A stretch of 64,000 bases of DNA from Halosolutus amylolyticus (GCF_023566055.1 NZ_JALIQP010000006.1:62001-126000), one strand, 5' to 3'. Shown: positions 41,300 through 59,155, counted from the first letter of the stretch. The notes: generated from the letters alone by a model not told the origin. Made by a program: numbers and translations.

Positions 41300-41325
41300 C
41301 GAACAGGTTCGGCCATTTATAATAC
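41300..41325 (+). promoter_or_regulatory. CGAAC-N2-GTTCG operator plus TATA box, gene target uncertain
   Basis: CGAACAGGTTCG (41300-41311) is followed after three bases by ATTTATAATAC, the best TATA-like sequence in this 332-bp gap (41150-41481). The order matches the other operator-promoters of the island on the plus strand, giving a start near 41346, 136 nt before the cupin gene. The TATA is nearly symmetric, so it could instead serve the minus-strand FeS/NrfD operon, with the palindrome then downstream of it. Confidence 0.6.
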
Positions 41326-41429
41326 CGTCGAATAACCGGTGCTTGCGAACTCCGGTATGTGGTATCAGGTGACAGTCACTCACTGGGGAACTCGAGGCTT
41401 CGACGACGGCCGATCGAACGGCGTTCGAC

Positions 41430-41441
41430 CGAATTTGTTCG
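41430..41441 (+). promoter_or_regulatory. operator palindrome upstream of cupin gene
   Basis: CGAATTTGTTCG, one base off a perfect CGAAC-N2-GTTCG, ends 41 nt before the ATG at 41482, the same spacing as in the two DUF2249 genes. GGCCAAATG follows where the TATA region is expected. Confidence 0.65.
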
Positions 41442-41481
41442 GCCAAATGCCCTTTCGGACGGCGGACCGACGGTCGCCTAG

Positions 41482-41808
41482 ATGACCGACCACAGATCCG
41501 ACGACGAGTCGCCTGCAGTCCAGTCGCTCGACGCCCTGGAGAGCACGCCGCACGCGCAGGTCTTCGACGGAGAACCGAAGACGATCAGGCTCGCGCTCGA
41601 GGCGGGCGAAGCGATCGCACCGCACCAGCATCCCGATCGGCAGATCGTACTGCACGTCCTCGAGGGACGGCTCTCGGTGTCGCTCGACGGCGACGAGTAC
41701 GAGGTCGCGGCGGGCGAACTCGCGCGGTTCGACGGGGCACAGGATATCGCGCCGAAAGCGCTCGCCGACTCGACGGCCCTGCTCGTGCTCGCGACGCGGG
41801 CCGACTGA
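41482..41808 (+). CDS. small cupin protein (108 aa)
   Basis: Compact cupin: LALEAGEAIAPHQHPDRQIVLHVLEG carries motif 1 with HxH (about 37-62), and YEVAAGELARFDGAQDIAPKALAD motif 2 (about 73-96). The two motif-1 histidines are followed by a Gln rather than Glu, and there is no motif-2 His, so metal binding is uncertain. Placement under the shared operator, next to the regulator, suggests an NO, oxygen or redox-linked role. Its TGA is back to back with the regulator's stop in a TGATCA palindrome. Confidence 0.82.
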   Translation: MTDHRSDDESPAVQSLDALESTPHAQVFDGEPKTIRLALEAGEAIAPHQHPDRQIVLHVLEGRLSVSLDGDEYEVAAGELARFDGAQDIAPKALADSTALLVLATRAD

Positions 41809-42486
41809 TCAGTCGCTGGCGAGTTGTTCCTCGAGACCGGCCTCCTCGTCGGGGACGCTCGGAACGTCCTCGACGAACCGCTTGATGATCGCCTCCTCGG
41901 CGCGGTGGAGCGTCTCGCTACAGGTCGACTTCGCGATGTCGAGGTGGTCGGCCAGTTCCGTGAGCGAACAGCACCGGGGCGTGTCGTAGTAGCCCTCGTC
42001 GACGGCGGCGACGACGATTTCGAGCTGTCGTTCAGACAGTAACTGGCTCTCGTGGAGCCGTTCCCGGACGTGCTCGATCCGGTACTGGAGCCCGAAGTGC
42101 TCGAACTGTTCGGCGAGTTCGGCGAGCCGTTCGCGCGAGCCGGTAACCTCGATCGTCGCCTCGCCGTCCTGGATCTCGACCGGCAACTCGATCGGCATCC
42201 CCGACTCCCGCGAGGAGAACTGCAACAGCGGGACGGTCGTTTCGAAGTGGACGGTCGCCTCGTTGTCGCTCCACTGGGCGAGGGTCAGTTCGGTGATCTG
42301 GGGATGCTCGTTCATGTCGTCGAGCACCTCGGCCACGTCGGGGCCGGCAATCCGGACGAGTGCGAAGCCCGATTCCGAACTGGGAACGGCCGCGAGAACC
42401 CGGAACGTCGACTCCGGGTGGGCCGTCGAAACTTGCTGAATCCAGATCTGTTCGGGCATCGTGAGGGTGAGCGTTGCCTGTGCCAT
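41809..42486 (-). CDS. Bat/HTH_10-type transcriptional regulator (225 aa)
   Basis: An N-terminal sensor-like domain of about 155 residues of alternating beta strands is followed by the haloarchaeal HTH_10 domain (about 160-210) with LSERQLEIVVAAVDEGYYDTPR and SLTELADHLDIAKSTCSETLHRAEE. This family includes Bat and DmsR. A perfect 14-bp palindrome of the island operator type lies 39 nt upstream of its own ATG, suggesting autoregulation. The N-terminal cysteine motif described for NarO is absent, so it is not an obvious NarO. It is the best local candidate to bind the operators. Confidence 0.87.
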   Translation of the reverse strand: MAQATLTLTMPEQIWIQQVSTAHPESTFRVLAAVPSSESGFALVRIAGPDVAEVLDDMNEHPQITELTLAQWSDNEATVHFETTVPLLQFSSRESGMPIELPVEIQDGEATIEVTGSRERLAELAEQFEHFGLQYRIEHVRERLHESQLLSERQLEIVVAAVDEGYYDTPRCCSLTELADHLDIAKSTCSETLHRAEEAIIKRFVEDVPSVPDEEAGLEEQLASD

Positions 42487-42523
42487 ACGATCGTGTTCTA
42501 GTCGGACCTACGTACCCGTGGCC

Positions 42524-42537
42524 CCGAATATATTCGG
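42524..42537 (-). promoter_or_regulatory. perfect 14-bp operator palindrome upstream of the Bat-type regulator
   Basis: CCGAATATATTCGG is a variant of the island motif (CGAAT-AT-ATTCG) and is centred about 45 nt before the ATG at 42486; the inner motif ends 39 nt away. A weak TATA-like GGGTACGTA follows on the minus strand at the expected place. The site may also influence the divergent DUF2249 gene. Confidence 0.6.
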
Positions 42538-42641
42538 TGGATTCCTATTACGTGGGAATCACCCATCCCGGTGAGCCGGTCGTGGTAGTCGGTGGGCGCA
42601 CTGTCGACTCACGGATTGCCAGCCGCCCGGATCGCGGGGCT

Positions 42642-42653
42642 CGAACACGTTCG
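42642..42653 (+). promoter_or_regulatory. operator palindrome upstream of DUF2249 gene 1
   Basis: CGAACACGTTCG is a perfect CGAAC-N2-GTTCG palindrome ending 40 nt before the ATG at 42693. Confidence 0.7.
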
Positions 42654-42692
42654 CCTGAACAGCCAACCGTCACCGTCCCGAACGACCGATCG

Positions 42693-42926
42693 ATGACGGC
42701 GAATCCAGCGCCCACCGAACGAACACTCGACGTGCGCGAAATCGACGGCGAACCGTTCGACGACATCGTGGCCGCCCTCGACGACCTCGGGGCGGACGAT
42801 CGACTCCGGCTGATCGCCCCGTTCGAACCGGTCCCGCTCTACGGCGTGCTCGAGAAACGCGGCTTCGAGCACGAGAGCGAGCAACGCGAGGGCGACGTCT
42901 GGCACGTGCTGATCGAACAGGCGTAG
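42693..42926 (+). CDS. DUF2249-family protein 1 (77 aa)
   Basis: Small SirA/TusA-like fold. TERTLDVREIDGEPFDDIVAA leads into a helix, then DRLRLIAPFEPVPLYGVLEKRGF (about 41-63) carries the family PxPLY signature, and VWHVLIEQA is the last strand. DUF2249 proteins often cluster with haloarchaeal and bacterial nitrite or NO metabolism genes; their biochemical role is unknown. Start at 42693 is fixed by the operator spacing. Two further paralogues are at 42997 and 57894. Confidence 0.85.
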   Translation: MTANPAPTERTLDVREIDGEPFDDIVAALDDLGADDRLRLIAPFEPVPLYGVLEKRGFEHESEQREGDVWHVLIEQA

Positions 42927-42944
42927 CCTGCGTGACGACCTTCG

Positions 42945-42956
42945 CGAACGTGTTCG
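42945..42956 (+). promoter_or_regulatory. operator palindrome upstream of DUF2249 gene 2
   Basis: CGAACGTGTTCG, a perfect CGAAC-N2-GTTCG palindrome, is followed by GGC and a TATA-like AAATATCG (about 42960-42967). It ends 41 nt before the ATG at 42997, the clearest example of the motif-TATA-start layout. Confidence 0.75.
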
Positions 42957-42996
42957 GGCAAATATCGAAAGGACTGCGACGGTGACCACAGACTGC

Positions 42997-43230
42997 ATGA
43001 CACGACTCGACGTCAGGGACGTGCCGCCGGTGAATCGCCATCCGAAGATCCACGAAACGTTCGAGGACCTGGAGCCCGGTGAGACGCTGACGATCGTCAA
43101 CGACCACGAACCCAAGCCGCTGTTCTACGAGTTCCAGGCCGAAGTCGAGGCCTTCGACGCCGACGGCTACGAGGTCGAACAGGTTGCCCCGGACGAGTTC
43201 GTCGCCCGGTTCCCGAAAGTAGAGGCGTAG
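42997..43230 (+). CDS. DUF2249-family protein 2 (77 aa)
   Basis: LDVRDVPPVNRHPKIHETFE at the N-terminus, then ETLTIVNDHEPKPLFYEFQ (about 29-47), the DUF2249 core with the PKPLFYEF signature, and DEFVARFPK as the final strand. The NDHEPKPL form resembles the hemerythrin-linked DUF2249 class implicated in NO or oxygen responses, but there is no hemerythrin here. ATG 42997 was chosen over an in-frame start at 42982 because the promoter spacing then equals that of its neighbours. Confidence 0.87.
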   Translation: MTRLDVRDVPPVNRHPKIHETFEDLEPGETLTIVNDHEPKPLFYEFQAEVEAFDADGYEVEQVAPDEFVARFPKVEA

Positions 43231-43372
43231 TATCGGCGGCCGAATCGCCGTCGGACCGAACCGATCGGCTTCCCGACGCGATCGAGGGGGCCGCGAAGGC
43301 GGCATCGAACCACTGACTGATAGCGGCGACGACCGACACGATGACGACTGGCACGATGACGATCGATACGAG

Positions 43373-44815
43373 ATGAACGAGGGACTCGACCGACGACGGT
43401 TCGCGAACCTGCTCGCGGGGACGACGATCGCTGCGTACGTTCTCGTCGCGCTCGGGACCGCCGTCTCGACGACGGACGGTGCAGCGACGTGTACGACCTG
43501 GCCGAACTGTTCGACCGACCCGACGCTGGGGTCGCTCTCCGGCGACCACCTTCTCTTCTGGGGCCACCGCGTGGCGGCCCTCGTGACCGGCCTCCTCGTC
43601 GCCGCGTCCGGCCTCGCGACTCGGCGGATAGACACCGATCGCCGGGTCACCAGCCTCGTCGGCACCGCGGTCGTCCTCTTTCCCGTCCAGGTCGTCCTCG
43701 GCGCCGCGATCGTCGTCGGGGGCCCCGCCGTCACGAACCGAATCCACCTCGCGCTCGCGATGGTCATCTTCGCCTGCCTCCTCGTCGCGCTCGTCGTGAC
43801 GCTGGAGGACAGTGCGCGCGAAGAGGTGGCCGGTTCCGTCGCTCCCGATCGATCGCCAACCGGCTCTGAAACGAGCACCGACGGCGGTTCCGGGGACGGG
43901 CCGATCCGTCGCGATCGGCCGGACGACTGGCTCGCCCGACTGCGCCAGACGGTCGGCGCCTACCTGACGTTCACCAAACCGCGGCTGATGTGGCTGCTCT
44001 GTCTCGTCGCGGTCGCGGGAATGGGGCTGGCGACGCTGACCGGCGCGAGTCTGGATGCGACGACCGCGATCGCGACGCTCGCCGGGGGCGTCCTCGCGAT
44101 CGGCGCGAGCGGAACTTTCAATCACGTCTACGAGCGCGACCGCGATCGGCGGATGAACCGCACGGCCGATCGGCCGCTGGTCCACGACCTCGTCCCGGCC
44201 CGGAACGCGCTGGCCTTCGGCGTCGCGCTCGTCGCGGCATCGATGGCCGTCCTCGTGGTCTGGGTCAACGTGCTGGCGGCGGCGCTGACGTTCGCCGCGA
44301 TCGGCTACTACGCGGTCCTCTACACCGTGGTCCTGAAGCCGAACACGGCCTGGAACACGGTGCTCGGTGGCGGCGCGGGAGCACTCCCCGCGCTCATCGG
44401 CTGGGCGGCGGTCACCGGGAGCGTCGGCCTGCCCGCGATCGCCCTCGCCGGCGTGATCTTCCTGTGGACGCCCGCCCACTTCTACAGCCTCGCGATCGCG
44501 TACCGGGACGATTATGCACGCGGCGGCTTCCCGATGTACCCGGTCGTCGAGGGCGTCCTCGCCGCGCGTCGACACGTGATGTTCTACCTCGGCGCGACGT
44601 TGCTGGCCACGAGCGTCCTCGGCTGGCTGGCCGGGCTCGGCTGGGTCTACGCGACCACGTCGGTCGCGCTGGGTGCCGTCTTCCTCCGCTCGGTGATCCG
44701 CCAGTACCGCGTGCCCACCGACGAGGTCGCGTTGCGCTCGTTCTTCGCGTCGAACTACTACCTCGGCGCGATTCTCCTCGCGATCGTCGTCGAGACGCTC
44801 GTAATCGCCGGGTAG
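43373..44815 (+). CDS. ctaB: CtaA-like half domain fused to protoheme IX farnesyltransferase CtaB (480 aa)
   Basis: Residues about 1-145 form four helices with HRVAALVTGLLVAASG and NRIHLALAMVIF, two histidines in the positions used by CtaA (heme A synthase), but only half the usual eight-helix protein. After a polar linker (about 150-185), residues 185-480 are a UbiA-type prenyltransferase: FTKPRLMWLL, NHVYERDRDRRMNRTADRPL (about 245-264, metal-diphosphate site) and a WTPAHFYSLAIAYRDDYARG loop. It makes heme O, and perhaps channels it toward heme A. The location suggests it serves the heme-copper enzyme downstream. Confidence 0.9.
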   Translation: MNEGLDRRRFANLLAGTTIAAYVLVALGTAVSTTDGAATCTTWPNCSTDPTLGSLSGDHLLFWGHRVAALVTGLLVAASGLATRRIDTDRRVTSLVGTAVVLFPVQVVLGAAIVVGGPAVTNRIHLALAMVIFACLLVALVVTLEDSAREEVAGSVAPDRSPTGSETSTDGGSGDGPIRRDRPDDWLARLRQTVGAYLTFTKPRLMWLLCLVAVAGMGLATLTGASLDATTAIATLAGGVLAIGASGTFNHVYERDRDRRMNRTADRPLVHDLVPARNALAFGVALVAASMAVLVVWVNVLAAALTFAAIGYYAVLYTVVLKPNTAWNTVLGGGAGALPALIGWAAVTGSVGLPAIALAGVIFLWTPAHFYSLAIAYRDDYARGGFPMYPVVEGVLAARRHVMFYLGATLLATSVLGWLAGLGWVYATTSVALGAVFLRSVIRQYRVPTDEVALRSFFASNYYLGAILLAIVVETLVIAG

Positions 44816-44975
44816 GCGGCCGCGAGAGTCGGTCCAGCTCCGATCGGCTTCGGTATCCACAGGGAAGGGTACTTAACTGACCACGATATGGCGGGAATCG
44901 GCGATTCGATTGCTATCGTATGGGAATCGCCGGTACGGTTGAACATACGTCTACCCCTATACCCAAGTGAAGACA

Positions 44976-46064
44976 ATGATCCCAACCGATACCAACCGAC
45001 GACGGTTCCTGCAGGCGATGGGCGCGGCCGGTGCAGTCGCAGTTGCCGGCTGTACGGGAACCAGCGACCCGGCCGACACGGGCACAGATTCCGAAGACGA
45101 TACGGACGAGGGGTTACCGCCGGCGGAGGACGTCGACGTCGATCGGATCGCCCGTGACCCCACGGACATCCCGGACCCGGTCGACTGGGACGAGCCCCGC
45201 ACGCACGACATCACGCTCGAGACCGAGCGCGTGACCGCCGAAATCGAGCCCGGCGTCACCTTCGAGTACATGACCTTCGGCGGACAGGTCCCCGGTCCGA
45301 TGGTCCGGGTCCGCCAGGGCGACACGGTGAACCTCACGTTCGACGTCCCGGACGACATGAACATCGACATGCACAACGTCGACTTCCACGCGGTCTACGG
45401 TCCCGGCGGCGGTGCGGACGCCACGACGCTCGCCCCGGGTGACGACCCCACGCAGATCAGCTTCACGGCCGAGTACGCCGGGGCGTTCATTTACCACTGT
45501 GCGGTCCCGAACATGGACCAGCACATCAGCTCCGGGATGTTCGGCTCGATCCTCGTCGAACCCGAGGACGGCCTCCCCGAGGTCGACCACGAGTTCTACC
45601 TCGGCCAGCACGAGATCTACACGGATGGCGAAGTCGGCGAGGAAGGCCACCACGGCTTCGACTTCGACGCCATGAAGAAAGAAGAGCCCACCTACGTGGT
45701 GTTCAACGGCCAGGCCTACGGCTTCACCGAGGACGGCGTCGGACCGATGGAGGCCAACACGGGCGAGACCGCCCGGGTCTACTTCGCCAACGGCGGGCCG
45801 AACCTGCTGAGCTCCTGGCACCCGATCGGGAACGTCTGGAGCAACTACTACCGCGACGGGGACCTGCTCTCCGAACCCGACAACAACATCGAGACGGCCC
45901 CGATCGCCCCCGGGACGACCGCGGCCGGCGAGATGGAGTTCCCCGTCCCCGGCCCGGTCAAGATCGTCGACCACGCACTCAGCCGCGTCGTCCACAAGGG
46001 TGCACTCGGCGTGATCGACGTCCAGGGTGAAGAGAACCCCGACGTCTACGACGAGGATCCGTAA
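44976..46064 (+). CDS. nirK: copper-containing nitrite reductase NirK, copy 1 (362 aa)
   Basis: It reduces nitrite to NO. An N-terminal twin-arginine lipoprotein signal (NRRRFLQAMGAAGAVAVAGC) exports and anchors it. Copper ligands are intact: type 1 His133, Cys175, His183 and Met188; type 2 His138, His174 and the C-terminal His333 (VDHALSRVVHKG); catalytic Asp136 and His282 are also present. ATG 44976 lies 27 nt after a TATA-like CATACGT. No clear operator palindrome is seen upstream, unlike copy 2. The middle 590 bp are identical to copy 2. Confidence 0.93.
   Translation: MIPTDTNRRRFLQAMGAAGAVAVAGCTGTSDPADTGTDSEDDTDEGLPPAEDVDVDRIARDPTDIPDPVDWDEPRTHDITLETERVTAEIEPGVTFEYMTFGGQVPGPMVRVRQGDTVNLTFDVPDDMNIDMHNVDFHAVYGPGGGADATTLAPGDDPTQISFTAEYAGAFIYHCAVPNMDQHISSGMFGSILVEPEDGLPEVDHEFYLGQHEIYTDGEVGEEGHHGFDFDAMKKEEPTYVVFNGQAYGFTEDGVGPMEANTGETARVYFANGGPNLLSSWHPIGNVWSNYYRDGDLLSEPDNNIETAPIAPGTTAAGEMEFPVPGPVKIVDHALSRVVHKGALGVIDVQGEENPDVYDEDP
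45204..45793. repeat. 590-bp tract identical to 59458-60047 (nirK copies)
   Basis: The central part of nirK copy 1 matches copy 2 base for base over 590 bp, including all synonymous sites, while both flanks diverge abruptly. It is a direct repeat at a fixed distance of 14,254 bp and a potential site for recombination. Confidence 0.93.
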
Positions 46065-46121
46065 GGCTCCCCGTCGGGATTTCGCACGGGTGAACCACGA
46101 TCCCGCGACCCCTCTCCCACC

Positions 46122-46709
46122 ATGACACTCACGTCCCGCCGCCACGTGCTCCGCTCGTCCGCGCTCGCGATCGGCGTCGCCCTCGGCGGCTGTCTCGCGG
46201 ACCCGACCGATCGCGCGAGCGACGGCGACGAGCAGCCGCCCGAGAACGCCGGCGAGCTGGGGACGCCCGCCGAGCGGATCACCGTCACGGCGAACTCCCA
46301 GCCTTACCCCGAGTTCGAACCGCAGATCGTCCACGTCGTTCCCGGCGGGACCGTCGAGTGGCTCGTCGAGACGGGGCGCCACGACGTCACCGCCTACCAC
46401 GAGGACGGCCACGGGCCCCACCGGACACCCGACGGCGTCGAGACCTGGGGGAGCGATCGGATGAGCGGTGTCGGCTCGGAGTACGAGCACACGTTCGATC
46501 GCGAGGGCGTCTACGACTACGTGGACACCCAGCAGGTCTGTACCTCCCACGAGGTCGCAGGCAACATCGGCCGCGTCGTGGTCGGCTGGCCCGACCCCGA
46601 CGACGAACCCGCGATGACCGACCCCCAGGAGGAACTGCCCTCACAGGCCGCCCGGGCGATCGAGATGTTCAACGAGGAGACCCGACCCGTCCTCGAGGAC
46701 GGTCCGTGA
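46122..46709 (+). CDS. halocyanin-like blue copper lipoprotein lacking the axial Met (195 aa)
   Basis: Tat lipoprotein signal SRRHVLRSSALAIGVALGGC (residues 5-24, lipobox GGC). The cupredoxin domain (about 50-155) has PQIVHVVPGGTVEWLVE, ligand His87 in GRHDVTAYH, then VCTSHEVAGN with Cys140 and His143. The residue where plastocyanin and halocyanin place the axial Met (Cys+8) is Asn148. Loss of Met generally alters the redox potential. Its place just downstream of nirK suggests it donates electrons to NirK or NOR. The C-terminal extension (about 155-195) is acidic and helical. Confidence 0.85.
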   Translation: MTLTSRRHVLRSSALAIGVALGGCLADPTDRASDGDEQPPENAGELGTPAERITVTANSQPYPEFEPQIVHVVPGGTVEWLVETGRHDVTAYHEDGHGPHRTPDGVETWGSDRMSGVGSEYEHTFDREGVYDYVDTQQVCTSHEVAGNIGRVVVGWPDPDDEPAMTDPQEELPSQAARAIEMFNEETRPVLEDGP

Positions 46710-46800
46710 TCGCCCCGTCCCACTTTTCGCTCGTCGAGTCGATCCGTCATCGGCCCCGACCCGGGCCGACCGTTCGCCGCCGTGAACGTCGGAATCGACC

Positions 46801-46812
46801 CGAACTTATTCG
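46801..46812 (+). promoter_or_regulatory. operator palindrome upstream of the Sco-TlpA-CcdA genes
   Basis: CGAACTTATTCG (one mismatch to the perfect palindrome) followed after three bases by a TATA-like GATTTCTAAG (about 46815-46824), predicting a short leader before ATG 46882. An alternative TATA-like CTTTACCC at 46849-46856 would give a leaderless message. Confidence 0.55.
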
Positions 46813-46881
46813 TCGATTTCTAAGGGATCGGGAATCCGGACGGCGCTTTACCCTCCCGAACGCGAAGATCCACTCGAGATC

Positions 46882-47664
46882 ATGACCCCAATATCCACAC
46901 CCATCGACAGGCGAACCGTACTCCGCGCAGCGGGAGCGGCGGCGCTCGGCGCGTCCCTCGCGGGCTGTTCGCAGCTGAGCAGTTCCAGCGGGGCCGCCGA
47001 GGGCCTCGTTCTCGACCCGCCGGAGAACCACGATCGGATCAAGGAGGCGGACCTCCCGCATCCGATCTACGGCGAGGGGATTCCGGAAGCGACGGTGCCG
47101 GCCCCGCTCCACGACCGATCGGTCACGACCACGGAGTTCGAGGGCGATCGGCACCTGATGCTGACGTTCGTCTACACCAGCTGTACGACCGTCTGTCCCG
47201 GCCTCACCGCGGCCCTGCGCCGCGTCCAGGACGACGCCCACGAGGAAGGGTACGAGGACGAGATCGCGTTCCTCCCGATGACCTTCGATCCCGAGTACGA
47301 CACTGCCGAGGTGCTCGAAGAGTACGGCGAGGAGTACGGGGTCGACTTCGACGCCGGCAACTGGTACTTCCTGCGGCCGGACACCCACGAAGACGCCAAG
47401 GCGATCGTCGAGGACACGTTCGGGGTGGCGTTCGAGCACGGCGAGGAGTCGGACGAGACGGACGACGAGGAGATGGACCACGGCGAAGAGTCGGACGACG
47501 AGGAGATGGACCACGACGAGATGGACCACGATCGACACATCACCCACACGTCGCTAATCTTGCTCGTGAACAAGGACGGCCTCGTCGAACGCGCCTGGAC
47601 GGGTGGCTCTCCGGGTGGTAACGAGATCGTCGACGCCGCCCGGGCCGTCGTCGAGGGGTGGTAA
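46882..47664 (+). CDS. SCO1/SenC copper chaperone lipoprotein (260 aa)
   Basis: Lipoprotein-type signal (RRTVLRAAGAAALGASLAGC) with Cys29. The thioredoxin-like domain carries the copper site VYTSCTTVCPG with Cys101 and Cys105, and a distal His near RHITHTSLILLVNKDG. Before that His there is an unusual Met/Asp/His-rich insertion, repeats of EEMDHGEESDD type, likely to bind copper. It delivers copper to the CuA site of heme-copper enzyme subunit II, encoded 2.3 kb downstream. The next gene starts 3 bp after its stop. Confidence 0.9.
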   Translation: MTPISTPIDRRTVLRAAGAAALGASLAGCSQLSSSSGAAEGLVLDPPENHDRIKEADLPHPIYGEGIPEATVPAPLHDRSVTTTEFEGDRHLMLTFVYTSCTTVCPGLTAALRRVQDDAHEEGYEDEIAFLPMTFDPEYDTAEVLEEYGEEYGVDFDAGNWYFLRPDTHEDAKAIVEDTFGVAFEHGEESDETDDEEMDHGEESDDEEMDHDEMDHDRHITHTSLILLVNKDGLVERAWTGGSPGGNEIVDAARAVVEGW

Positions 47665-47667
47665 TCC

Positions 47668-48198
47668 ATGCGCCGTCGCGAGGTCATCGCGGGAGCCGCG
47701 GGCCTCGCCGCCCTCGGCGGCGGCGCGATCGCCGTCGGCGAGTGGAACCCCCTCGAGAGCGGCGCGGCGGTCGACCCGATCGAACTCGAGACGATCGACG
47801 CGCCAGGGAGTACGGCCGGCACCGCGACGATACCCGAACCCGGCCGGGTGACGTTCGTCGAACTGTTCGCCACCTGGTGTAACGTCTGTCAGGACATGAT
47901 GGAGCCCCTCGGGCGAGTCCACGACGACGTCGACGGCGACGTCCAGTTCGTCTCGGTGACCGGCGAACCGATCGGGAACACCATCACACGCGAGGACGTC
48001 GCGGACTGGTGGCGCGAGCACGACGGCGACTGGCCGGTCGCGCTCGACCCCGACCTCGAACTGACGGAAGCGCTCGACGGCTCCGGGGTGCCGTACGCGT
48101 TCGTCCTCGACGCGGACAACGTCGTGACCTGGTCCGGACGCGGAAGAAAATCGGCCGACGAGATTCGATCGGCCATCGACGCGGCCGGGGGTGAGTAA
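47668..48198 (+). CDS. TlpA-like exported thiol-disulfide protein (176 aa)
   Basis: MRRREVIAGAAGLAALGGGAIA is an N-terminal signal/anchor. VTFVELFATWCNVCQDMMEPL (about 62-82) is the thioredoxin-fold active site with CNVC, and GVPYAFVLDADN holds the cis-Pro loop. In this setting it probably keeps the CuA cysteines or the Sco cysteines reduced outside the membrane, receiving electrons from the CcdA-like protein, whose gene overlaps its 3' end by 8 bp. Confidence 0.88.
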   Translation: MRRREVIAGAAGLAALGGGAIAVGEWNPLESGAAVDPIELETIDAPGSTAGTATIPEPGRVTFVELFATWCNVCQDMMEPLGRVHDDVDGDVQFVSVTGEPIGNTITREDVADWWREHDGDWPVALDPDLELTEALDGSGVPYAFVLDADNVVTWSGRGRKSADEIRSAIDAAGGE

Positions 48199-49193: not shown

Positions 49194-49197
49194 TTCG

Positions 49198-49737
49198 ATG
49201 ACGTCACCGATCAAACCCCCGGACGGCAACTGGTGGGACCAACCGGTCAACAGGCGAGAGTCCATCTGGCTCGGACTGGGCGTCGGCTGGTCGCTCATCC
49301 TCTTTGGCTGGATGAGCGCCTGGACGCGCGTCGGGGACCAGAACCCGATCGGCGAGACCTATCGCGTCGACAGCGAGGAGTACCGCGAGAAGATGGACGC
49401 CTACAAGGAGGCGGCCACCGAGACCGAGGACGGCCTCGTCCCGCCGGGAACTGACGTCTACATCAACGCGATGCGTTTCCAGTGGGACGGCGCGCCGGTC
49501 GTACTCGAGGCCGGAACCGAGTACGATATCCACCTCAGTTCCATGGACGTCCAGCACGGCTTCTCGCTCCGGCCGGAAGAGGCGCTCAGCAAACAGATCA
49601 ACCTGCAGGTGCTTCCGGGCTACGAGTGGGTCGTCCCGATGACGTTCGACGAACCGGGGACCTACCACATCATCTGCAACGAGTTCTGCGGCCAGGGCCA
49701 CAGAACCATGCACGGAACGATCGTCGTGGAGGAGTGA
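49198..49737 (+). CDS. heme-copper enzyme subunit II with CuA site (179 aa)
   Basis: One N-terminal transmembrane helix (about 22-42) and an external cupredoxin domain. The binuclear CuA ligands are complete: His120 (DVQHGF), then Cys160, Glu162, Cys164, His168 and Met171 in CNEFCGQGHRTM. A MRFQWDG segment matches the conserved aromatic electron-entry patch. It accepts electrons from a soluble copper protein, probably a halocyanin, and passes them to the heme b of subunit I. Subunit I begins 5 bp after its stop. Confidence 0.93.
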   Translation: MTSPIKPPDGNWWDQPVNRRESIWLGLGVGWSLILFGWMSAWTRVGDQNPIGETYRVDSEEYREKMDAYKEAATETEDGLVPPGTDVYINAMRFQWDGAPVVLEAGTEYDIHLSSMDVQHGFSLRPEEALSKQINLQVLPGYEWVVPMTFDEPGTYHIICNEFCGQGHRTMHGTIVVEE

Positions 49738-49742
49738 TATCG

Positions 49743-51485
49743 ATGGCACACAAGCTAGACGTTCTCGGGCTGTTCGACAACGAGTATCGCGACGACGGCT
49801 TCCGAACCTGCTCCGTGACGGGACTCGAGGTCCACCGCTCCGTCGACAACCACGTCAAACTGTTCGGGCTCACGGCGGTCGTCGCCCTACTGTACGGCGG
49901 AATCTTCGCGTTCACCGTGGCGATGACCCGCTGGGAAGTGATCGGCCTCCTCGGGGCCGACGCCTTCTACACGCACCTCAGCCTCCACGCGTGGAACCTG
50001 CTCATCTTCTGGATGGTGTTCATGGAGGTCGCAATCCTCTACGTCGGCGGGCCGATGGTGCTCGGCAGACGGCTGCCGCTCACGCGAATCGCGAAGGCGG
50101 GCTGGGCCGTCATGGTCGGCGGGGCCGTGCTCGTCAACTACGCCATCTGGACTACCGAGGCACCGAACGAGGCACCGCTGCTGACGGCCTACGTCCCGAT
50201 GCCGATCTCGCCGCTGTTCTACGCCGGCGCGTGCGTGTTCATCCTGGGTACCGTCGTCGCGGCATTGCCGTTTTTCGTCTCGATGTGGCGCGAAAAGCGC
50301 GAGAATCCGGGGAAGACGCTTCCGCTCGTCAGCTTCGCCGCGTTCGTCACGTCGATCATCGCCGTCGAGGCGCTGGTCGGCGGCCTGCTGGCGTTCGGTC
50401 CCGCCCTGCTGTGGCGGCTGGAACTGATCCAGTGGTGGGACGCCGCCTGGTACCGCCAGATGTACTGGATCATCGGCCACGGCACCCAGCAGATCAACCT
50501 CGTCGCGATGATCGCGGTCTGGTACTTCCTGACCCACGTCGTCGCCGGCGCGGAGGTCGTCAGCGAGAAGGTCTCGCGGACGGCGTTCATCCTCTACCTG
50601 TTCTTCATCAACCTCGGCGCGGCACACCACCTGCTGTCGGATCCCGCGGTCTCGACCGGGTGGCGCATCTGGAACACCTCCTACGCGTTCTACGGCGCGA
50701 CGTTCGCGAGCCTCATCCACGCGTTCGCCATCCCGGCCGGGATCGAGGCCGGCCGCCGCAAGCGCGGGAAGGGCGGCGGACTGTTCGGCTGGCTCACGTC
50801 CGCACCGTGGTCGAACCCGGTGTTCTCCTCGACCATCTTCTCGATCATCCTCTTTGGCTTCCTCGGCGGGATCACCGGCGTGATGATGGGGCAGCTCCAG
50901 CTCAACATGACCTGGCACAACACGTTCGCGACGGTGGGCCACTTCCACGGGACCGTCGTCCTCGGGACCACCGTCGCGTTCATGGGGCTGGCCTTCTTCG
51001 TGATCCGGACCATGTTCATGCGCCAGTACGTCTCCGAACGGCTCGCGTCGATCCAGCCGTTCTTCTACTCGGCCGCGATGGGCGTCGCCGTCCTCATGAT
51101 GATGTACGTCGGCATCCTCTACGGCATCCCGCGCCGAACGTCCGAAGTCGTCGAGAACATCCCCGGCACCGAGTTCAGCCTCTCGGCCGCGTCGCCGCTG
51201 TTCGCGATCTTCGGGATCTTCGCGTTGCTGGCTATCGTGGGCGGCGTCCTGTTCGTCCTCGTCGCCGTCGGCTCGCTGGTCTTCGGCGATCGGGTCGAGA
51301 ACGGGGACAACGCAGATCTGATCGCCGACGGGGGACTCGGGATGGCACAGGACCCCGACGACCCCGTCCACGCCTACGAGATGCGCGGCACGTTCGTCCT
51401 CTGTCTGATCTTCCTCGCCGCGTTCGTGATCACCTACCTGCTGAACTGGTATCTGCTCACACAGCTCTGGTCGATCGGCGCCTGA
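49743..51485 (+). CDS. B-family heme-copper subunit I with Tyr-to-Gln active site, probable nitric oxide reductase (580 aa)
   Basis: It aligns end to end with Thermus ba3 oxidase (B family): low-spin heme ligand in THLSLHAW (His82), helix VI IIGHGTQQINLV (His246), the CuB/FeB pair GAAHHLLSD (His295, His296) and WHNTFATVGHFHGT (His400, His402). In oxygen reductases of this family helix VI reads GHPxVY, with Tyr cross-linked to the first His; here the Tyr position is Gln250. Loss of this Tyr is the recognised mark of NO reductase-type members. With two nirK genes nearby, NO reduction to N2O is the best inference; oxygen reduction cannot be fully excluded. Confidence 0.9.
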   Translation: MAHKLDVLGLFDNEYRDDGFRTCSVTGLEVHRSVDNHVKLFGLTAVVALLYGGIFAFTVAMTRWEVIGLLGADAFYTHLSLHAWNLLIFWMVFMEVAILYVGGPMVLGRRLPLTRIAKAGWAVMVGGAVLVNYAIWTTEAPNEAPLLTAYVPMPISPLFYAGACVFILGTVVAALPFFVSMWREKRENPGKTLPLVSFAAFVTSIIAVEALVGGLLAFGPALLWRLELIQWWDAAWYRQMYWIIGHGTQQINLVAMIAVWYFLTHVVAGAEVVSEKVSRTAFILYLFFINLGAAHHLLSDPAVSTGWRIWNTSYAFYGATFASLIHAFAIPAGIEAGRRKRGKGGGLFGWLTSAPWSNPVFSSTIFSIILFGFLGGITGVMMGQLQLNMTWHNTFATVGHFHGTVVLGTTVAFMGLAFFVIRTMFMRQYVSERLASIQPFFYSAAMGVAVLMMMYVGILYGIPRRTSEVVENIPGTEFSLSAASPLFAIFGIFALLAIVGGVLFVLVAVGSLVFGDRVENGDNADLIADGGLGMAQDPDDPVHAYEMRGTFVLCLIFLAAFVITYLLNWYLLTQLWSIGA

Positions 51486-52263: not shown

Positions 52264-52270
52264 TCACGAC

Positions 52271-52300
52271 GAGAGATCCGTGAACAGAAACGGATCTCTC
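52271..52300. terminator. bidirectional hairpin terminator
   Basis: A perfect 11-bp inverted repeat, GAGAGATCCGT (52271-52281) and ACGGATCTCTC (52290-52300), with an 8-nt loop GAACAGAA. It lies between two convergent genes, 8 bp after the membrane protein stop. Confidence 0.75.
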
Positions 52301-52329
52301 GCGGACGAGCCGAGACAGTTGCGCAGATC

Positions 52330-53298
52330 TCACCGGAATTCGAACCGAGCACCACCCTCTGGACTTTCGGCAAGCGACACGTCAAGATCGTGATCTTCGG
52401 CGATTCGCCGCACGATCGTCAATCCGACCCCACTCCCACCGTAGCTCGTCGTGAACCCATGTTCGAACACTTGCTCTCGTTTTTCCGGCGGGATCCCCTC
52501 TCCGGTATCCTCGGCGTAGAACCCCTCGTCTACGGGGCCAACTCGGACAGTTACGTGGCTCCCGCCGTGGCCAACTGCGTTCCGGAACAGGTTCTCGAAA
52601 AGTGCCTGCAACTGGCTCCTGTCGGCGTCGATCGTGGAGTTTTGCGTTTCGAGGGTCGCAGACTGGGTATCGATCGATTTCCACGCGTCTCGTGCGATAG
52701 CAGACAGCGAGACACGTTCGTGCTCCTTTTCCGAAGTACTGGACCGGGCGAGCGCTGTAAGATCCACAACGAGATCCTCGACTCGTCCCAATGCGTCCGC
52801 AACTCCATCCAGGTTGGCCTCGTCACCGGTCTCGCGATACTGATCGAGTTCTGCCAGCGCGACCGCCAGGGGGTTCCGAAGATCGTGGGACACCATACTT
52901 GCAAACTGGTCTAAGCGCTCGTTCTGGCGTTCGAGTTCCGCTGCTGTTTGGCGAGCGTCAGTCACTTCTTGCGTGACCAGTACGCCGTACGACTCGTCAT
53001 CGATACGCACTGATCTCGTCTCGAGATGGTGGATTCGACCCTGGTATTCTGTATCGAATGATCGAGAGGAACCATCGATCGTGTCCCGAAGTTTCGGCTC
53101 GAGTTCGGTTACCGTTTCCTCGGGGAAAAGTTCGCCGAGCTGTTTGCCGACCATCTCCGTAGCCCTTCTCCTCGAGAACGGGAGGGTCTCGGGGCCAATG
53201 ATACGATAGCGGAGGTCAGCGTCGAACAGTACTAAGACACCGTTTGGGAACGTATCGACGAGGGCCCGGTAACCATCCGGTAGAGGAGTATGTTCCAT
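52330..53298 (-). CDS. PAS-domain sensor histidine kinase (322 aa)
   Basis: PAS domain (about 10-115, ending GVLVTQEVTDARQ), HisKA with the phospho-accepting His in SMVSHDLRNPLAVALAEL (about 132-149), and HATPase_c with N box FENLFRNAVGHGG, G1 EDTGEGIPPEKREQVFEHG and G2 GGSGVGLTIVRRIAEDH. All catalytic boxes are intact. No membrane segment, so it is a soluble sensor. No response regulator is adjacent. Codon third positions are somewhat more A/T-rich than in the surrounding genes. Confidence 0.9.
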   Translation of the reverse strand: MEHTPLPDGYRALVDTFPNGVLVLFDADLRYRIIGPETLPFSRRRATEMVGKQLGELFPEETVTELEPKLRDTIDGSSRSFDTEYQGRIHHLETRSVRIDDESYGVLVTQEVTDARQTAAELERQNERLDQFASMVSHDLRNPLAVALAELDQYRETGDEANLDGVADALGRVEDLVVDLTALARSSTSEKEHERVSLSAIARDAWKSIDTQSATLETQNSTIDADRSQLQALFENLFRNAVGHGGSHVTVRVGPVDEGFYAEDTGEGIPPEKREQVFEHGFTTSYGGSGVGLTIVRRIAEDHDLDVSLAESPEGGARFEFR

Positions 53299-53464
53299 AT
53301 GTAAATTCAGTTATCTACAAGACGACCTTTCACCTGTTAAATATATTGGCCGATTGCAGAAAGCCGCGTCGAAATATCTGAAGAACCGATCGAGATGAAA
53401 GTAACTACCAGGCAGCCGCTTCCTCTATTCGAGAGTTTATATGGTCTCTTTTCTGGTAGTTCTT

Positions 53465-54511
53465 ATGGATGATACCCAGGATGTTGTGTTACCGTCGGCG
53501 TTCGATGACCTGGATATTGGTATCACCTTACGGGAGCCGGAGACAGGACAACTCATCGATATGAACGAACAGGTAGAGCGGATATACGGCTACTCTCGGG
53601 AGGAACTACTCGAGATGAAGATCGAGGAGTATACCGCCCCTTCGACGAAATTTTCGCAGGACTCGGCAATCCGTCGAATCCACGCTGCAGCCGATGGGAA
53701 TTCACAGGTGTTCGAATGGCGGGTCGAACGGTCCAATGGTGAACTGGTCTGGGTTCGCGTCTGCCTCAATCAGACGACGATCGGAGGGAACACGTATGTC
53801 GTCGCCGAAATTCGCGATATTAGTGAGTACAAGGCACGAGAGCGACGATTACGCCTCCTTAATCGCGTCGTCCGACACAACCTCCGAAACGAGACGAACG
53901 TACTTATGGGGTACGCCGACCGTCTCAAAAGCGCCGTCGAAGAAAAGACGCTCGAACAGGAGGTCGAGACGATTCTGGAGATTGCCACGGAGATCGGGAC
54001 GTTGAGCGACTCGATTCAGCAAATAGAGGAGATCGCGAAGCCCGACGCAACACAGCGCTCTCCGTCGAATATCGCAGATCTGGTCCGAGAAGTCGTTACG
54101 GAGACGCGTGCTGAATATACAGACATCGAGCTAACTGTCGATATTCGGGCCGATGTCTGGGTTAGCGCCGACAGGGGCCTTCGCCACGCGATCAAACACG
54201 CCATCGAGAACGCGATCGTCCACAACGACCGTGACACCTCGTCTGTCGAGGTACTCATCACCACAGTGCCGGACACTGATCAGGGGGAGATACGCATCAT
54301 TGATACTGGACCAGCTATCCCGGACGTCGAAGTCGACGTTCTCAGAGAGGACATCACGGCGAGTACCACCTACCACGGATCTGGCGTCGGTCTATGGGTG
54401 ATGCAGTGGTGTGTCGACTCTCTCGGGGGTGAACTCGTCTTTGACGAGAATTCCCCTCGCGGAAACGTTGTACGGTTCGTACTTCCCCAGATCGATGTCT
54501 CTGAGACGTAG
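53465..54511 (+). CDS. PAS-domain sensor histidine kinase in lower-G+C DNA (348 aa)
   Basis: PAS domain (about 10-125, YGYSREELLEMKIEEYTAPS, then VVAEIRDISEYKARERR), HisKA with NRVVRHNLRNETNVLMGYAD (about 132-151, His at RHN) and HATPase_c with HAIENAIVHND and GSGVGLWVMQW. ATG 53465 is preceded by a TATA-like GAGTTTATATGG (about 53433-53443). G+C is visibly lower than in the flanks (about 52% in a 60-base sample at 53521), which suggests foreign origin. It is divergent from the kinase at 52330-53298; the signal is unknown. Confidence 0.88.
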   Translation: MDDTQDVVLPSAFDDLDIGITLREPETGQLIDMNEQVERIYGYSREELLEMKIEEYTAPSTKFSQDSAIRRIHAAADGNSQVFEWRVERSNGELVWVRVCLNQTTIGGNTYVVAEIRDISEYKARERRLRLLNRVVRHNLRNETNVLMGYADRLKSAVEEKTLEQEVETILEIATEIGTLSDSIQQIEEIAKPDATQRSPSNIADLVREVVTETRAEYTDIELTVDIRADVWVSADRGLRHAIKHAIENAIVHNDRDTSSVEVLITTVPDTDQGEIRIIDTGPAIPDVEVDVLREDITASTTYHGSGVGLWVMQWCVDSLGGELVFDENSPRGNVVRFVLPQIDVSET

Positions 54512-54603
54512 AGGGTGTTTCCACTCTCCCTCTCGCCGGAGATCGTTCGGTCCTCCAATCAAGTGTTCTGTGATGCCCTATCGAGTGGATCTACCGACTG
54601 CTC

Positions 54604-57075
54604 TCACCGATCGTCCTCTAGCACCGATCGCGACGAGTTGAGGACGACGAGGGCGCTACTGGTCGCCATCGCGACGGCCGCGAAGAGCGGGTTGATCAGC
54701 CCCGCGGCGGCCAGCGGGATCGCGACGGCGTTGTACAGCAGCGCCCAGCCGACGTTCTCGCGGATGCGCCGCCGGGTGCCCTCGGCGAGGTCGAACACGG
54801 ACCGGACGGCGCGGAGATCGCTCGCGGTCACGACCGCGTCTGCGGCGTCGGTCGCGCGGGCCGTCCCGCTCCCGAGCGCGATACCGACGTCGGCCGCGGC
54901 CAGCGCCGGCGCGTCGTTCGTCCCGTCGCCGACCATCGCCGTCACACCTTCCCGGGAGAGTCGCCGGACGGTCTCGACCTTCCCGTCGGGCGGGACGCCC
55001 GCGAAGACGCGATCGACCGCCGGATGCTCGCGGACGGTCGTCGTCGCGGCCGCGTCGTCCCCGGTCAGCACGACCACCTCGCGATCCGCGAACGATTCCA
55101 GAACCGATCGCCACTCCGATCGCGTCCGATCGCCGACGACGGCGACGGCCCGTGCCGCCCCGCCGTAGCCGATGACGACGGGGAGTCGGCCCCGATCTCG
55201 AGCGTCCGCGACGGCCGATTCGAGGGCGTCCGGGACCGGCCCGGCAAGCCGCTCGACGAGGGTGGGCGTGCCGACGACGACGCGATCGGCGTCTCGAGGA
55301 TCGTCGGTGTCGCCGGCCCTCGCGCCCGCGACCGTCGCGCTCACGCCCTCGCCGGGGTGGCGCTCGAAGTCGGTCACGTCGAGGACGTCCTCGCCCGTGG
55401 AACGCACGTCGCCGGACGCGTGATCGAGGTGGCCGCCGTCGGCCGTAATTCGATCACTTTCCGGACCCTCGACCGCGTGGGCCACGATCGCGGCGGCGGC
55501 GGGGTGTTCGGACCGACGCTCGACGGCGGCCGCGAGATCGATCGCGTCGGCCTCCCCGTGGACCTCGCGCACGGTCATCTCACCCGCTGTCAGCGTGCCG
55601 GTCTTGTCGAAGACGATCGTCTCGACGGACGAGACCGACTCGAAGAGGGCCGCGTTCGCGACGACGATCCCGCGTTCGAGCGCGTCGCGAAGGCCGGAAG
55701 CGACGGCCAGCGGGGTCGCTAGCCCCATCGCGCAGGGACAGGAGACGACGAGCACGGTCAGCCCGGTCAGTACCGCGTCCGGAATCGGTGTTCCCGTCGC
55801 GAGTCGCCACCCCGTGACGACGACCGCGAGCGTCAGGACGAAGGGGACGAAGATCGTCGCGAGCCGATCGGCCAGCCGCTGGACGCCAGGCGTCGCGCTC
55901 TGGATCTCCCACATGAGCGTCGCGATGCGATCGAGCGTGCTCTCGGCGTCCGCGCCCACTGCGACGACGAGCGCGCTGTCGGTCACGATCGCGCCGCCGA
56001 CGACCCGGTCTCCGGGCCGCTTCGTGACCGGCAGGGACTCGCCGGTGAGCACCGACTCGTCGACGGCCGCCGTCCCCTCGATCACCGTGCCGTCGACGGG
56101 AATCCGCTCGCCGGGCCTGACGAGGACCTCGTCGCCCGCCGCGAGCCGATCGATCGGGACCGTTTCGGTTCCCTCGCCTTCGGGGAGTCTGCGAGTCGCC
56201 TCGCGGACCTGCGCGGCCGTCACGTCCGCGAGCAGGTCGGTTGCCCGGCGCTTGATCCGGCGCTCGTAATAGGTACCCAGGCTGACGACCATGATCACGG
56301 CGACGGTGACGTCGTAGTAGAGGTGGGTACTGCCCGTCGCGAGCGCGACCGTGCTGTAGGCGTAGGCCGAGACCGCCGCGATAGCGATCAGCAGATCCAT
56401 GTTCGGCTGGCCGACCCGCAGGCTGACGTACGCGCCGCGCAGGACGGGGTAGCCGGTGTAGAACAGCACGCCGCCGGCGAACAGGCCGATCATCGCGAAC
56501 GGGATGGTCGTTCCGAGCGGGGAGGTCGCGTCGACCGAGAGGATGCCCGTCTCGATCCCCACGTAGCTGGGATAGAGGTAGAACAGGTACCACGGCATGA
56601 CGAGCATCGAGAGGAAGCCGCCGACCAGCAGCCGCTCGACGAGGTCCTCGTCGGCGCGCGTGCGCTCGTCGTCGTCGCGGAATCGCGCGTCGTACCCGTA
56701 GCCGGAGAGCACGTCGGGGAGGTCGGCCTCGTCCAGCCGATCGGGATCGTAGACGACGCGGGCGGTGTCGGTCGCGTAACTCGCCTCGACCGCGAGGATT
56801 CCGTCCTCGCCCTCGCCCAGCAGGGAGACGAACCCCTCGCAGGTCGAACAGTGCATCCCGTCGATCGCGAGGAACGTCTCCGTCGCCCCGTCGGGAACCT
56901 CTCGATCGACTGACTCTGAGGCCCGCTCGACGACGCACTCGCGATCGACGTCCTCGACGGTCTCCAGGGTCGCGCTCACCTCGAGACAGCCCCGACAGCA
57001 GAAGCGCCCCTCGACGTCTGTGGCTGTCACCGGGGGCTCCGGCGTCGGGAGCCCGCAGAGCGAGCAGGAACTCAT
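54604..57075 (-). CDS. FixI/CcoI-like copper-transporting P1B-type ATPase (823 aa)
   Basis: The N-terminus has a treble-clef-like CSLCGLP...FCCRGC segment (residues 4-30) and a heavy-metal-associated domain with CSTC (76-79). Eight predicted helices include the metal site [13 protein letters not shown]. Catalytic motifs are FDKTGTLT (phosphorylated Asp), [14 protein letters not shown] (HP motif) and [10 protein letters not shown]. The N-terminal Cys cluster plus HMA arrangement is that of CopA2/FixI pumps that supply copper to heme-copper enzymes rather than simple detoxification pumps, fitting the neighbours. It follows the DUF3054 gene on the same strand by 91 bp. Confidence 0.92.
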
Positions 57076-57166
57076 GCCACGGTGGATAGTCGTCGACGCG
57101 ACCGGTAGCCGTGGCGCCGAACACGTTCCCCTCGCCGGCCGACCGGCCGCCCGGCTCGATCGGGCG

Positions 57167-57610
57167 TCACCGTCGTCCCCGCCATCCGCGGATGGTGCCG
57201 GTCACTGCGAGTCGCCACGGGAGGACGAACCCGAGGCCGAGGACCGCGTTGACGAGCAAGAACGACGGCGGCGCGCCGCCGGGAAACAGCGAGGTGGCGC
57301 GGATCGCGCCGCCCAGCAGCGACGCGCCGATCCAGGCGAGACCGACGACGGCGACCGTCCGCCGGGCCGATTCGAGAACCCGGCCGCGATACGCGCCGAC
57401 GAGCGCGGCGACGGTCGCCCACCCGATCACGAACGGCGTCGCGGTGCGGACGGTGTGGGCCGGGAACTCCCAGGGCGCCATCCCGTGGCTGTGCAGGCCG
57501 ACGGCGACGAACGCCGTCACGACGAGCGCGTCGGCGACGGCGAGGACGGCGACCAGCGGAACGGAAGCGACTCGATCGACCGACTCGGGGCGTGGGTGGG
57601 ATTCGATCAT
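57167..57610 (-). CDS. DUF3054-family membrane protein (147 aa)
   Basis: Four hydrophobic helices with the family features [19 protein letters not shown] (about 20-38), [22 protein letters not shown] in the middle and [22 protein letters not shown] near the end. DUF3054 proteins are small four-helix membrane proteins of unknown function. ATG 57610 was preferred to upstream Arg-rich extensions. It is probably cotranscribed with the downstream copper ATPase. Confidence 0.85.
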
Positions 57611-57756
57611 GGCTCTCGTAACACGGTCACCGCGTGTCGGCTCCGATCGAGGGACGGGAGACCGAACGGCTGGCGAGAGGCGCGGCGGTCCCCGCCGTGA
57701 CAGCCCACGGTGACGTTCGATCGAGTCGACGCACGCCACGTATGCGGATTTGCTCC

Positions 57757-57768
57757 CGAACGGGTTCG
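57757..57768. promoter_or_regulatory. operator palindrome in the DUF3054/DUF2249 divergent gap
   Basis: CGAACGGGTTCG is a perfect CGAAC-N2-GTTCG palindrome. It is 147 bp from the DUF3054 start and 126 bp from the DUF2249 start, and no TATA box stands beside it, so its target is unclear. It could serve the copper-ATPase operon through a long leader. Confidence 0.5.
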
Positions 57769-57843
57769 GCGCGTTCGCCCGGACACCTCGACCATGGCTC
57801 GCGCCCCGCTCTCAGCATCCCTCCCGCCAATCGGGACCCGACC

Positions 57844-57855
57844 CGAACACGTCCG
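57844..57855 (+). promoter_or_regulatory. operator palindrome upstream of DUF2249 gene 3
   Basis: CGAACACGTCCG, one mismatch from the perfect palindrome, ends 39 nt before the ATG at 57894, matching the spacing of the other DUF2249 promoters 15 kb away. Confidence 0.65.
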
Positions 57856-57893
57856 GGACGAGACACAGGCCGGCCGAACCCGTACTGAGACGT

Positions 57894-58163
57894 ATGCAGT
57901 CACCCTCGTCCGTTATCGACCGCACCGACGCACCGTCCGATCGCCCGCGCGAGGTGATCGACGTCCGCATGCTCGGGCCGCCGGAACCGCTGACGGAGAC
58001 GCTCGAGACGCTCGCCGACCTCGACACCGAGACGGTCCTGGTCCAGCGCAACGATCGCGCGCCGCAGTTCCTCTACCCGAAACTCGAAGACCGGGGCTAC
58101 GCCTACGAGACCGTCGACCTGGACGACGAAGTCGTGACCGTCATCTGGCGGTCGAACGGCTAG
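57894..58163 (+). CDS. DUF2249-family protein 3 (89 aa)
   Basis: Core VIDVRMLGPPEPLTETLETLA then ETVLVQRNDRAPQFLYPKLEDRGY (about 48-71) and VVTVIWRSNG at the end. It has the DUF2249 fold with PQFLYPKL in place of the PxPLY motif. About 15 N-terminal residues precede the domain. Spacing from its operator fixes the ATG at 57894. The end overlaps the convergent hydrolase gene by 4 bp. Confidence 0.85.
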   Translation: MQSPSSVIDRTDAPSDRPREVIDVRMLGPPEPLTETLETLADLDTETVLVQRNDRAPQFLYPKLEDRGYAYETVDLDDEVVTVIWRSNG

Positions 58164-59065
58164 TTTCCCAGGTGATCGAGCAGAAGATCGGTCACCCGCT
58201 CCGGCCGTTCGTGCTGGACCCAGTGGCTCGTCTCGGACAGGAGTTCGAGGCGACCGTCGTCACAGTATCGGTGGCCCTCGACGGCCAGTTCCGGAACCAG
58301 TGCGGTGTCGTCTTCGCCCCAGACGACGAGCGTCGGCGCTGCGACACGCTCCCGTGACGGACTCGGTGGGTACCGGGCCGCCGCCCGGTACCAGTTGAGC
58401 ATCCCGGTGATCGCACCGTCCTGCCCCCAGGCGCGACGGTAGTGGGCCAGTTCCTCCTCGGTGAACGTCCCTGTCGCGGACGTCTCGCGGAGCGCTCGCT
58501 CGAGAACGCCGAAGTCGGTCGCCCGACAGGCGAGTTCCGGAATCCAGGGGAGCTGAAACGCCATCACGTACCAGCTTCGCCGCAACTGCTCCGGGTTCGA
58601 TCGGAGTTGCTCCCGGTAGGCCGTCGGATGCGGCGCGTTGACGATCGCGAGCCGATCGACGACGTCCGGATGGGACAGGCCGAGTTCCCAGGCGACGGAC
58701 CCGCCCCAGTCGTGGCCGACGACGTGGGCCGACGCCGCCCCCTCGGTTTCGACGAGTTCGACGACGTCTCGCGCGAGTACACGTTGCTGGTACGCCCGGA
58801 CGGCGGCCGGTTTCTCGCTCAGGTTGTACCCGCGCTGGTCGGGCACGAGGACGCGGTAGCCGGCCGCGACCAGCGGTTCGATCTGGGCGCGCCAGCCGTA
58901 CCAGAACTCGGGGAACCCGTGGAGCAAGACGACGAGCGGATCGGTCTCGTCACCGGCCGCGACGACGTGGAGCCGAACGCCGTTGACGGTGCGGCGTGTC
59001 GACTCGACGTCGATCGTCGACAGTAACGACGCGTCGGTCCTACCTGGAGGAGCCGTCGAACCCAT
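58160..59065 (-). CDS. alpha/beta hydrolase, epoxide-hydrolase-like (301 aa)
   Basis: Oxyanion-hole strand LVVLLHGFPEFWYGWRAQI (about 44-62), VPDQRGYNLSEKP, nucleophile elbow VVGHDWGGSVAWELG (about 114-128) with Asp nucleophile, acid in VVWGEDDTAL, and catalytic His in TSHWVQHERPE (about 282-292). Asp at the elbow plus the cap domain makes epoxide hydrolase or haloalkane dehalogenase chemistry likely. A minus-strand TATA-like GGTTTTGAAAC around 59087-59097 supports the start. No link to its denitrification neighbours is evident. Confidence 0.9.
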   Translation of the reverse strand: MGSTAPPGRTDASLLSTIDVESTRRTVNGVRLHVVAAGDETDPLVVLLHGFPEFWYGWRAQIEPLVAAGYRVLVPDQRGYNLSEKPAAVRAYQQRVLARDVVELVETEGAASAHVVGHDWGGSVAWELGLSHPDVVDRLAIVNAPHPTAYREQLRSNPEQLRRSWYVMAFQLPWIPELACRATDFGVLERALRETSATGTFTEEELAHYRRAWGQDGAITGMLNWYRAAARYPPSPSRERVAAPTLVVWGEDDTALVPELAVEGHRYCDDGRLELLSETSHWVQHERPERVTDLLLDHLGN

Positions 59066-59143
59066 ACCGAATAATGTACGCGACGGGGTTTCAAAACCGG
59101 TTGTCCGCCGGATCGCGTTCGTCTCTCACCGTGGCCATGTCGC

Positions 59144-59155
59144 CGAACATGTTCT
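59144..59155 (+). promoter_or_regulatory. operator palindrome upstream of nirK copy 2
   Basis: CGAACATGTTCT (one mismatch to the perfect palindrome) is followed by GGG and an AT-rich GTTTTCTTTC, giving the motif-TATA order seen elsewhere. The predicted transcript has a leader of about 45 nt containing GAGGAGA before ATG 59233. Confidence 0.65.

Follow-up and report, generated by a model that had tools for sequence, protein, structure and literature searches.

A known denitrification operator and its probable Bat-type reader in the nitrite and nitric oxide gene island of Halosolutus amylolyticus

The 64-kb stretch of Halosolutus amylolyticus DNA analysed here, referred to as the window, carries an island of genes for nitrite and nitric oxide metabolism in which a 12-bp palindrome, CGAAYNNRTTCG, recurs between genes. 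The questions raised by this locus are whether the palindrome marks genes that are switched on together and which protein reads it. This element is already known from Haloferax. The CGAA-X4-TTCG element of Hattori et al. 2016 is described, in a later account (PMC5746218), as essential for nirK transcription in Haloferax, with nirK, other denitrification genes and ahbD among its targets. In H. mediterranei the semi-palindrome CGAAYATDKTYG is found before nirK, nor, nos, DUF2249 and the bacterioopsin-activator gene E6P09_00735, and a 12.5-kb nirK/nor island contains eight copies of the motif (PMC10062603, PMC11218638). Mutations of this semi-palindrome lower the activity of the nos and nor promoters, and in norp the palindrome stands at a distance of 66 nt (PMC10062603). 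In a 2024 transcriptome paper the motif is tied to genes for DUF2249 proteins and bacterioopsin activators, and the regulator that binds it is referred to as undisclosed (PMC11218638).

The earlier note on this DNA had suspected that its palindrome is the Haloferax element. The sequence does match both CGAA-X4-TTCG, as given in PMC5746218, and CGAAYATDKTYG (PMC10062603), the hint that NarO is the regulator being the weaker part of that suggestion. Since the element is already published, the palindrome is not new. What is added here to the known operator is a wider list of targets and comparative evidence for a Bat-type regulator as its reader; the identity of the reader is the question left by the literature (PMC11218638), for which registers, targets and co-occurrence single out one regulator.

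Exact matches to CGAAYNNRTTCG number nine in the 64 kb against 0.96 expected from dinucleotide shuffles, with a maximum of three among 100 shuffles. Two of them, at 8719 and 24335, lie within coding sequence and were absent from the nine sites listed in the earlier note, seven of which are exact (41300, 41430, 42525, 42642, 42945, 46801 and 57757) while those at 57844 and 59144 carry one mismatch each. The four perfect CGAAC-N2-GTTCG sites counted there for the island (41300, 42642, 42945 and 57757) are correct. A position weight matrix derived from other genomes, with the window excluded from training, places 10 intergenic island sites among the 13 best of the window. Over the 4.59 Mb of the whole genome the exact sites number 127, or about 0.5 per 17.9 kb, on which basis the Poisson probability of seven in the island is near 1e-6. 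These 127 sites, many of which among those examined fall inside genes, could be taken to mean that the palindrome is an accident of composition and codon usage in a GC-rich genome. Such an accident is very improbable, as the seven exact sites of the island all lie between genes, at fixed registers that are repeated in different haloarchaeal families.

Gaps are given here as the number of bases between the end of the palindrome and the ATG. The gene of the Bat-type regulator (41809..42486, minus strand) has the exact operator CGAATATATTCG (42525..42536, minus strand) 38 nt before its own ATG, a placement suited to autoregulation. The exact operators CGAACACGTTCG (42642..42653, plus strand) and CGAACGTGTTCG (42945..42956, plus strand) lie 39 nt before DUF2249 gene a (42693..42926, plus strand) and 40 nt before DUF2249 gene b (42997..43230, plus strand; ATG 42997). 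The cupin gene (Cupin_2, 108 aa; 41482..41808, plus strand) follows the exact operator CGAATTTGTTCG (41430..41441, plus strand) by 40 nt. DUF2249 gene c (57894..58163, plus strand) is preceded at 38 nt by the one-mismatch operator CGAACACGTCCG (57844..57855, plus strand) and at 125 nt by the exact palindrome CGAACGGGTTCG (57757..57768), which is either a second site or a chance occurrence. The placement of these five sites close to a start codon had been recognised earlier, with gaps of 39-41 nt; the real gaps are 38-40 nt, one base having been counted in excess.

Other operators stand at their own distances. The exact site CGAACTTATTCG (46801..46812, plus strand) is located 69 nt before the SCO1/SenC gene (46882..47664, plus strand), itself followed by a redoxin-domain gene, and a same-genus genome has a one-mismatch site at the identical gap. 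The second copy of nirK, encoding multicopper oxidase domains (59233..60318, plus strand; ATG 59233), has the one-mismatch operator CGAACATGTTCT (59144..59155, plus strand) at 77 nt. A site missed before and newly added is the one-mismatch GGAACGTGTTCG (57118..57129, minus strand), 42 nt before the ATG (57075) of a heavy-metal (copper-type) P-ATPase gene (54604..57075, minus strand). The exact site CGAACAGGTTCG (41300..41311, minus strand) has no clear plus-strand partner and lies 150 nt before the start of a single operon encoding a FeS protein (Ferredoxin_N) and a NrfD membrane protein (38010..41149, minus strand). Its counterpart in a same-genus genome is also 150 nt before the FeS/NrfD operon, of which it is most likely the conserved operator. 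The target list of the earlier note, namely the cupin, the regulator, three DUF2249 genes, Sco and the second nirK, is thus retained with the reassignment of 41300 and the addition of 57118, and the FeS/NrfD operon, the Cu-ATPase and the cupin join the likely regulon. No good operator has been found in this window directly before the first nirK copy, the halocyanin gene at 46122 or cox2.

Some genes of the island deserve a description of their own. The proteins of the two nirK copies (44976-46064 and 59233-60318) have long identical stretches in common, which suggests a recent duplication or gene conversion; an operator lies directly upstream of copy 2 and not of copy 1. A COX2/COX1-type pair at 49198-51485, whose relatives in Halorubrum loci come after a ctaAB gene that has its operator at 37 nt, may represent a NO reductase or an oxidase from among the haem-copper enzymes. 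The FeS/NrfD operon adjoins the regulator in many Natrialbaceae, where it is conserved, and possibly serves as electron supply for nitrite and NO reduction.

The registers have been compared in 80 named haloarchaeal loci obtained from a scan for regulator orthologues. Exact sites located up to 200 nt upstream of called genes form a sharp peak, 104/296 being at 35-44 nt, although the calling of genes by a codon-usage script makes the start positions approximate and blurs some of the registers. A palindrome within 300 nt upstream is present for 36/48 FeS genes, 22/30 DUF2249b, 7/10 Cu-ATPases, 53/79 regulators, 30/54 DUF2249 a and c and 13/28 nirK genes, counts that are not independent, since possession of the regulator was the criterion for choosing the loci and many of these are closely related. 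In a separate count, 7/11 orthologues of the Cu-ATPase have the palindrome, with gaps of 38-43 nt. Target families overall reach 42-89% over these 300 nt, against 3/47 for Mrp and 6/31 for an alpha/beta hydrolase; for 24 other neighbouring families the number is zero, some of them being internal operon genes that need no promoter. Within families the gaps are constant: nearly all sites of FeS orthologues are at about 141-155 nt, 19 sites of DUF2249b orthologues at 40 nt, and those of nirK orthologues at 76-78 nt. The FeS gene had at first had the look of a negative control (2/49 at 150 nt), before its operator was located at about 150 nt.

A TATA-like stretch had been described as beginning three bases behind several sites. 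An AT-rich patch does lie close behind, but in a composite of 97 promoters the palindrome is followed after four bases by an AA pair, in a BRE-like position, then by A/T near -27 and again near -10 to -11. We read these positions as the BRE, the TATA box and the -10 element that leaderless transcripts have in haloarchaea. The comparative registers, the family counts and the profile across genomes agree with the proposal of a palindrome-marked regulon with activator-like placement and with the regulator among its own targets. As judged from these sequence comparisons, the palindrome very likely marks nitrite and nitric oxide genes that are switched on together.

The regulator itself is a protein of 225 aa with an HTH_10 domain (PF04967) at residues 150-202, scoring 62.7 bits against the Pfam cut-off of 23.1, and a weak BAT-associated domain below the Pfam cut-off; no PAS or GAF domain is detected in it by Pfam. 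The N-terminal CXnCXCX7C cysteine motif of NarO is absent from it, and 69/72 orthologues lack any cysteine up to residue 150. At E<=1e-20, 268/292 genomes of the class encode an orthologue or close homologue. An AlphaFold model of fair quality (mean pLDDT 81, pTM 0.55) has alpha/beta structure in its N-terminal part and a helix-turn-helix at the C-terminus and adds little beyond this; a fold search against the PDB has given no informative match. Two cysteines of the DNA-binding domain, in TPRxC and KSTC, are common in orthologues, and KSTC is lacking from those other HTH_10 proteins of the source genome that were read. A redox switch formed by these cysteines was considered and is weakened by Ser/Ala variants and by KSTT in the Haloferax homologue.

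Sites before the regulator gene recur in orthologues at 37-38 nt, and relatives have further ones at 84-85 nt and at 1 nt; where a DUF2249 gene is the divergent neighbour, the 84-nt site of the regulator doubles as the 38-nt site of the DUF2249 gene. Several homologues of the Halorubrum group have no palindrome in their own promoter. The exact 1-nt sites, which recur in orthologues and would lie over the point where a leaderless transcript begins, leave some room for the tentative proposal that the regulator is partly a repressor, shutting off its own gene in relatives through the start-codon-adjacent site and behaving elsewhere as an activator. The regulator gene of the window is preceded only by 38-nt and 155-nt sites, however, and the published effect of mutating the palindrome is a loss of nos and nor promoter activity (PMC10062603), neither of which is in favour of repression.

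To relate the regulator to its operators, 72 genomes have been profiled, 48 of them regulator-positive, 20 regulator-negative (no hit at E <= 1e-20, the ten best candidates being scored per genome) and four left out for weak hits. Raw genome-wide counts of the palindrome were set aside, as matches in coding sequence inflate them, in favour of counts at promoter position, 36-42 nt before an ATG, with 48-54 nt as control distance. The first pattern, CGAAYNNRTTCG, was noisy, and the pattern CGAAYRYRTTCG with its purine-pyrimidine centre was tightened after inspection of the sites, a post hoc step. The mean per genome of CGAAYRYRTTCG is 6.85 against 2.42 at the control distance in the 48 positive genomes, and 1.55 against 1.85 in the 20 negative ones; within genera, positives are higher in 10/11 of those holding both kinds. 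DUF2249 is missing from 17/20 regulator-negative genomes and present in 5/6 of the positives looked at, and as the regulator, the operators and DUF2249 tend to be present or missing as a set, the presence of the pathway is the main confounder of this profile.

The same genomes bear on the role of NarO. Hattori in 2016 reportedly found NarO to be needed for denitrifying growth in H. volcanii. PMC5746218, citing Hattori 2016, has denitrification in H. volcanii requiring NarO and the palindrome found essential for nirK in the same study, and 30 HTH_10 loci read in the source genome include two NarO-type proteins with CxCx7C. One could thus suppose that NarO, or a protein of NarO/DmsR type, binds the palindrome and that the Bat-type regulator is merely one of the targets. 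The palindrome excess follows the Bat-type regulator, however, and not the presence of NarO-type proteins: proteins of NarO/DmsR type occur in 15/20 regulator-negative genomes, where the excess is lacking; in seven regulator-positive genomes none was detected, and there the excess has a mean of 2.6 and reaches 12 in one genome (G322). Neither NarO-type gene of the source genome has a palindrome within 150 nt upstream. A regulator-negative genome (G110) is in favour of NarO, as it has retained an exact palindrome at 40 nt from the start of a ThiS-like gene (L262 8465-8860) with a NarO-type gene nearby, and another protein may read that site. The detection of NarO-type proteins takes in DmsR-like paralogues, so that this profile is not decisive against NarO, whose role as the reader we consider unlikely. 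Another genome (G153), having no regulator hit and keeping some targets without exact promoter sites, was considered as a natural experiment and is not a clean case, because two orthologous genes in the regulator-positive G281 are also without sites.

The genome scan that the earlier note had named as a possible refutation has been run in part on the source genome. An exact palindrome is found 34-45 nt before an ATG in 24 places, of which about eight are real gene starts and ten are inside coding genes. The real starts comprise four in the island, two in one cluster that also has radical-SAM genes (a ThiS-like gene and a 102-aa gene), one regulator paralogue and one ABC-transporter gene whose connection is not obvious. 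A radical-SAM gene of the ThiS-like cluster has, at 65 nt, a site with one mismatch and may correspond to ahbD, a published Haloferax target. The regulator paralogue (218 aa; L201 8944-9600) has its own exact palindrome at 42 nt and is situated near a large molybdopterin oxidoreductase gene.

These comparisons suggest that the Bat-type regulator at 41809-42486, rather than NarO, probably reads the palindrome. With somewhat less assurance we favour the fuller reading that it is an activator other than NarO that also regulates itself, that it and its operators occur or are missing jointly, and that as many as three operators in the promoter of its gene could form a feedback switch. A dimer of the regulator would most likely bind the palindrome just upstream of BRE/TATA and assist recruitment of the basal machinery as oxygen declines or nitrite or NO appears, turning on genes of nitrite reduction, copper supply, DUF2249 proteins and electron transfer and controlling its own gene. 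NarO, if involved, may act upstream of the Bat-type regulator or beside it.

The palindrome of the window has the sequence of the haloarchaeal denitrification operator CGAA-N4-TTCG and, like it, occupies nirK, nor and accessory promoters at fixed distances. For Haloferax it has been shown that anaerobic promoter activity requires this element (PMC5746218, PMC10062603). Plasmids of Haloferax larsenii and Halobellus limi have the same arrangement, qNor having its site at 66 nt, equal to the published norp distance. In H. larsenii this qNor site is accompanied by a regulator homologue of 41% identity, which lies in a nor/multicopper-oxidase cluster with a 42-nt site. The H. volcanii element (PMC5746218) is identical in sequence and has like targets; the present locus belongs to another haloarchaeal family, has further conserved targets (FeS/NrfD operon, Cu-ATPase, cupin and Sco), and its registers are mostly 38-40 nt. 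The core of CGAAYATDKTYG of H. mediterranei is shared with the palindrome of the window, and whereas the regulator there is stated to be undisclosed, the comparative profile here points to the Bat-type regulator. NarO and DmsR resemble this regulator in their HTH_10 domain and similar length and are linked to anaerobic respiration, but the regulator of the window is without their N-terminal CXnCXCX7C and its recognition helix differs. With the bacterioopsin activator Bat it shares the HTH_10 DNA-binding domain, and it differs from Bat in having neither PAS nor GAF and only a sub-threshold BAT-associated domain.
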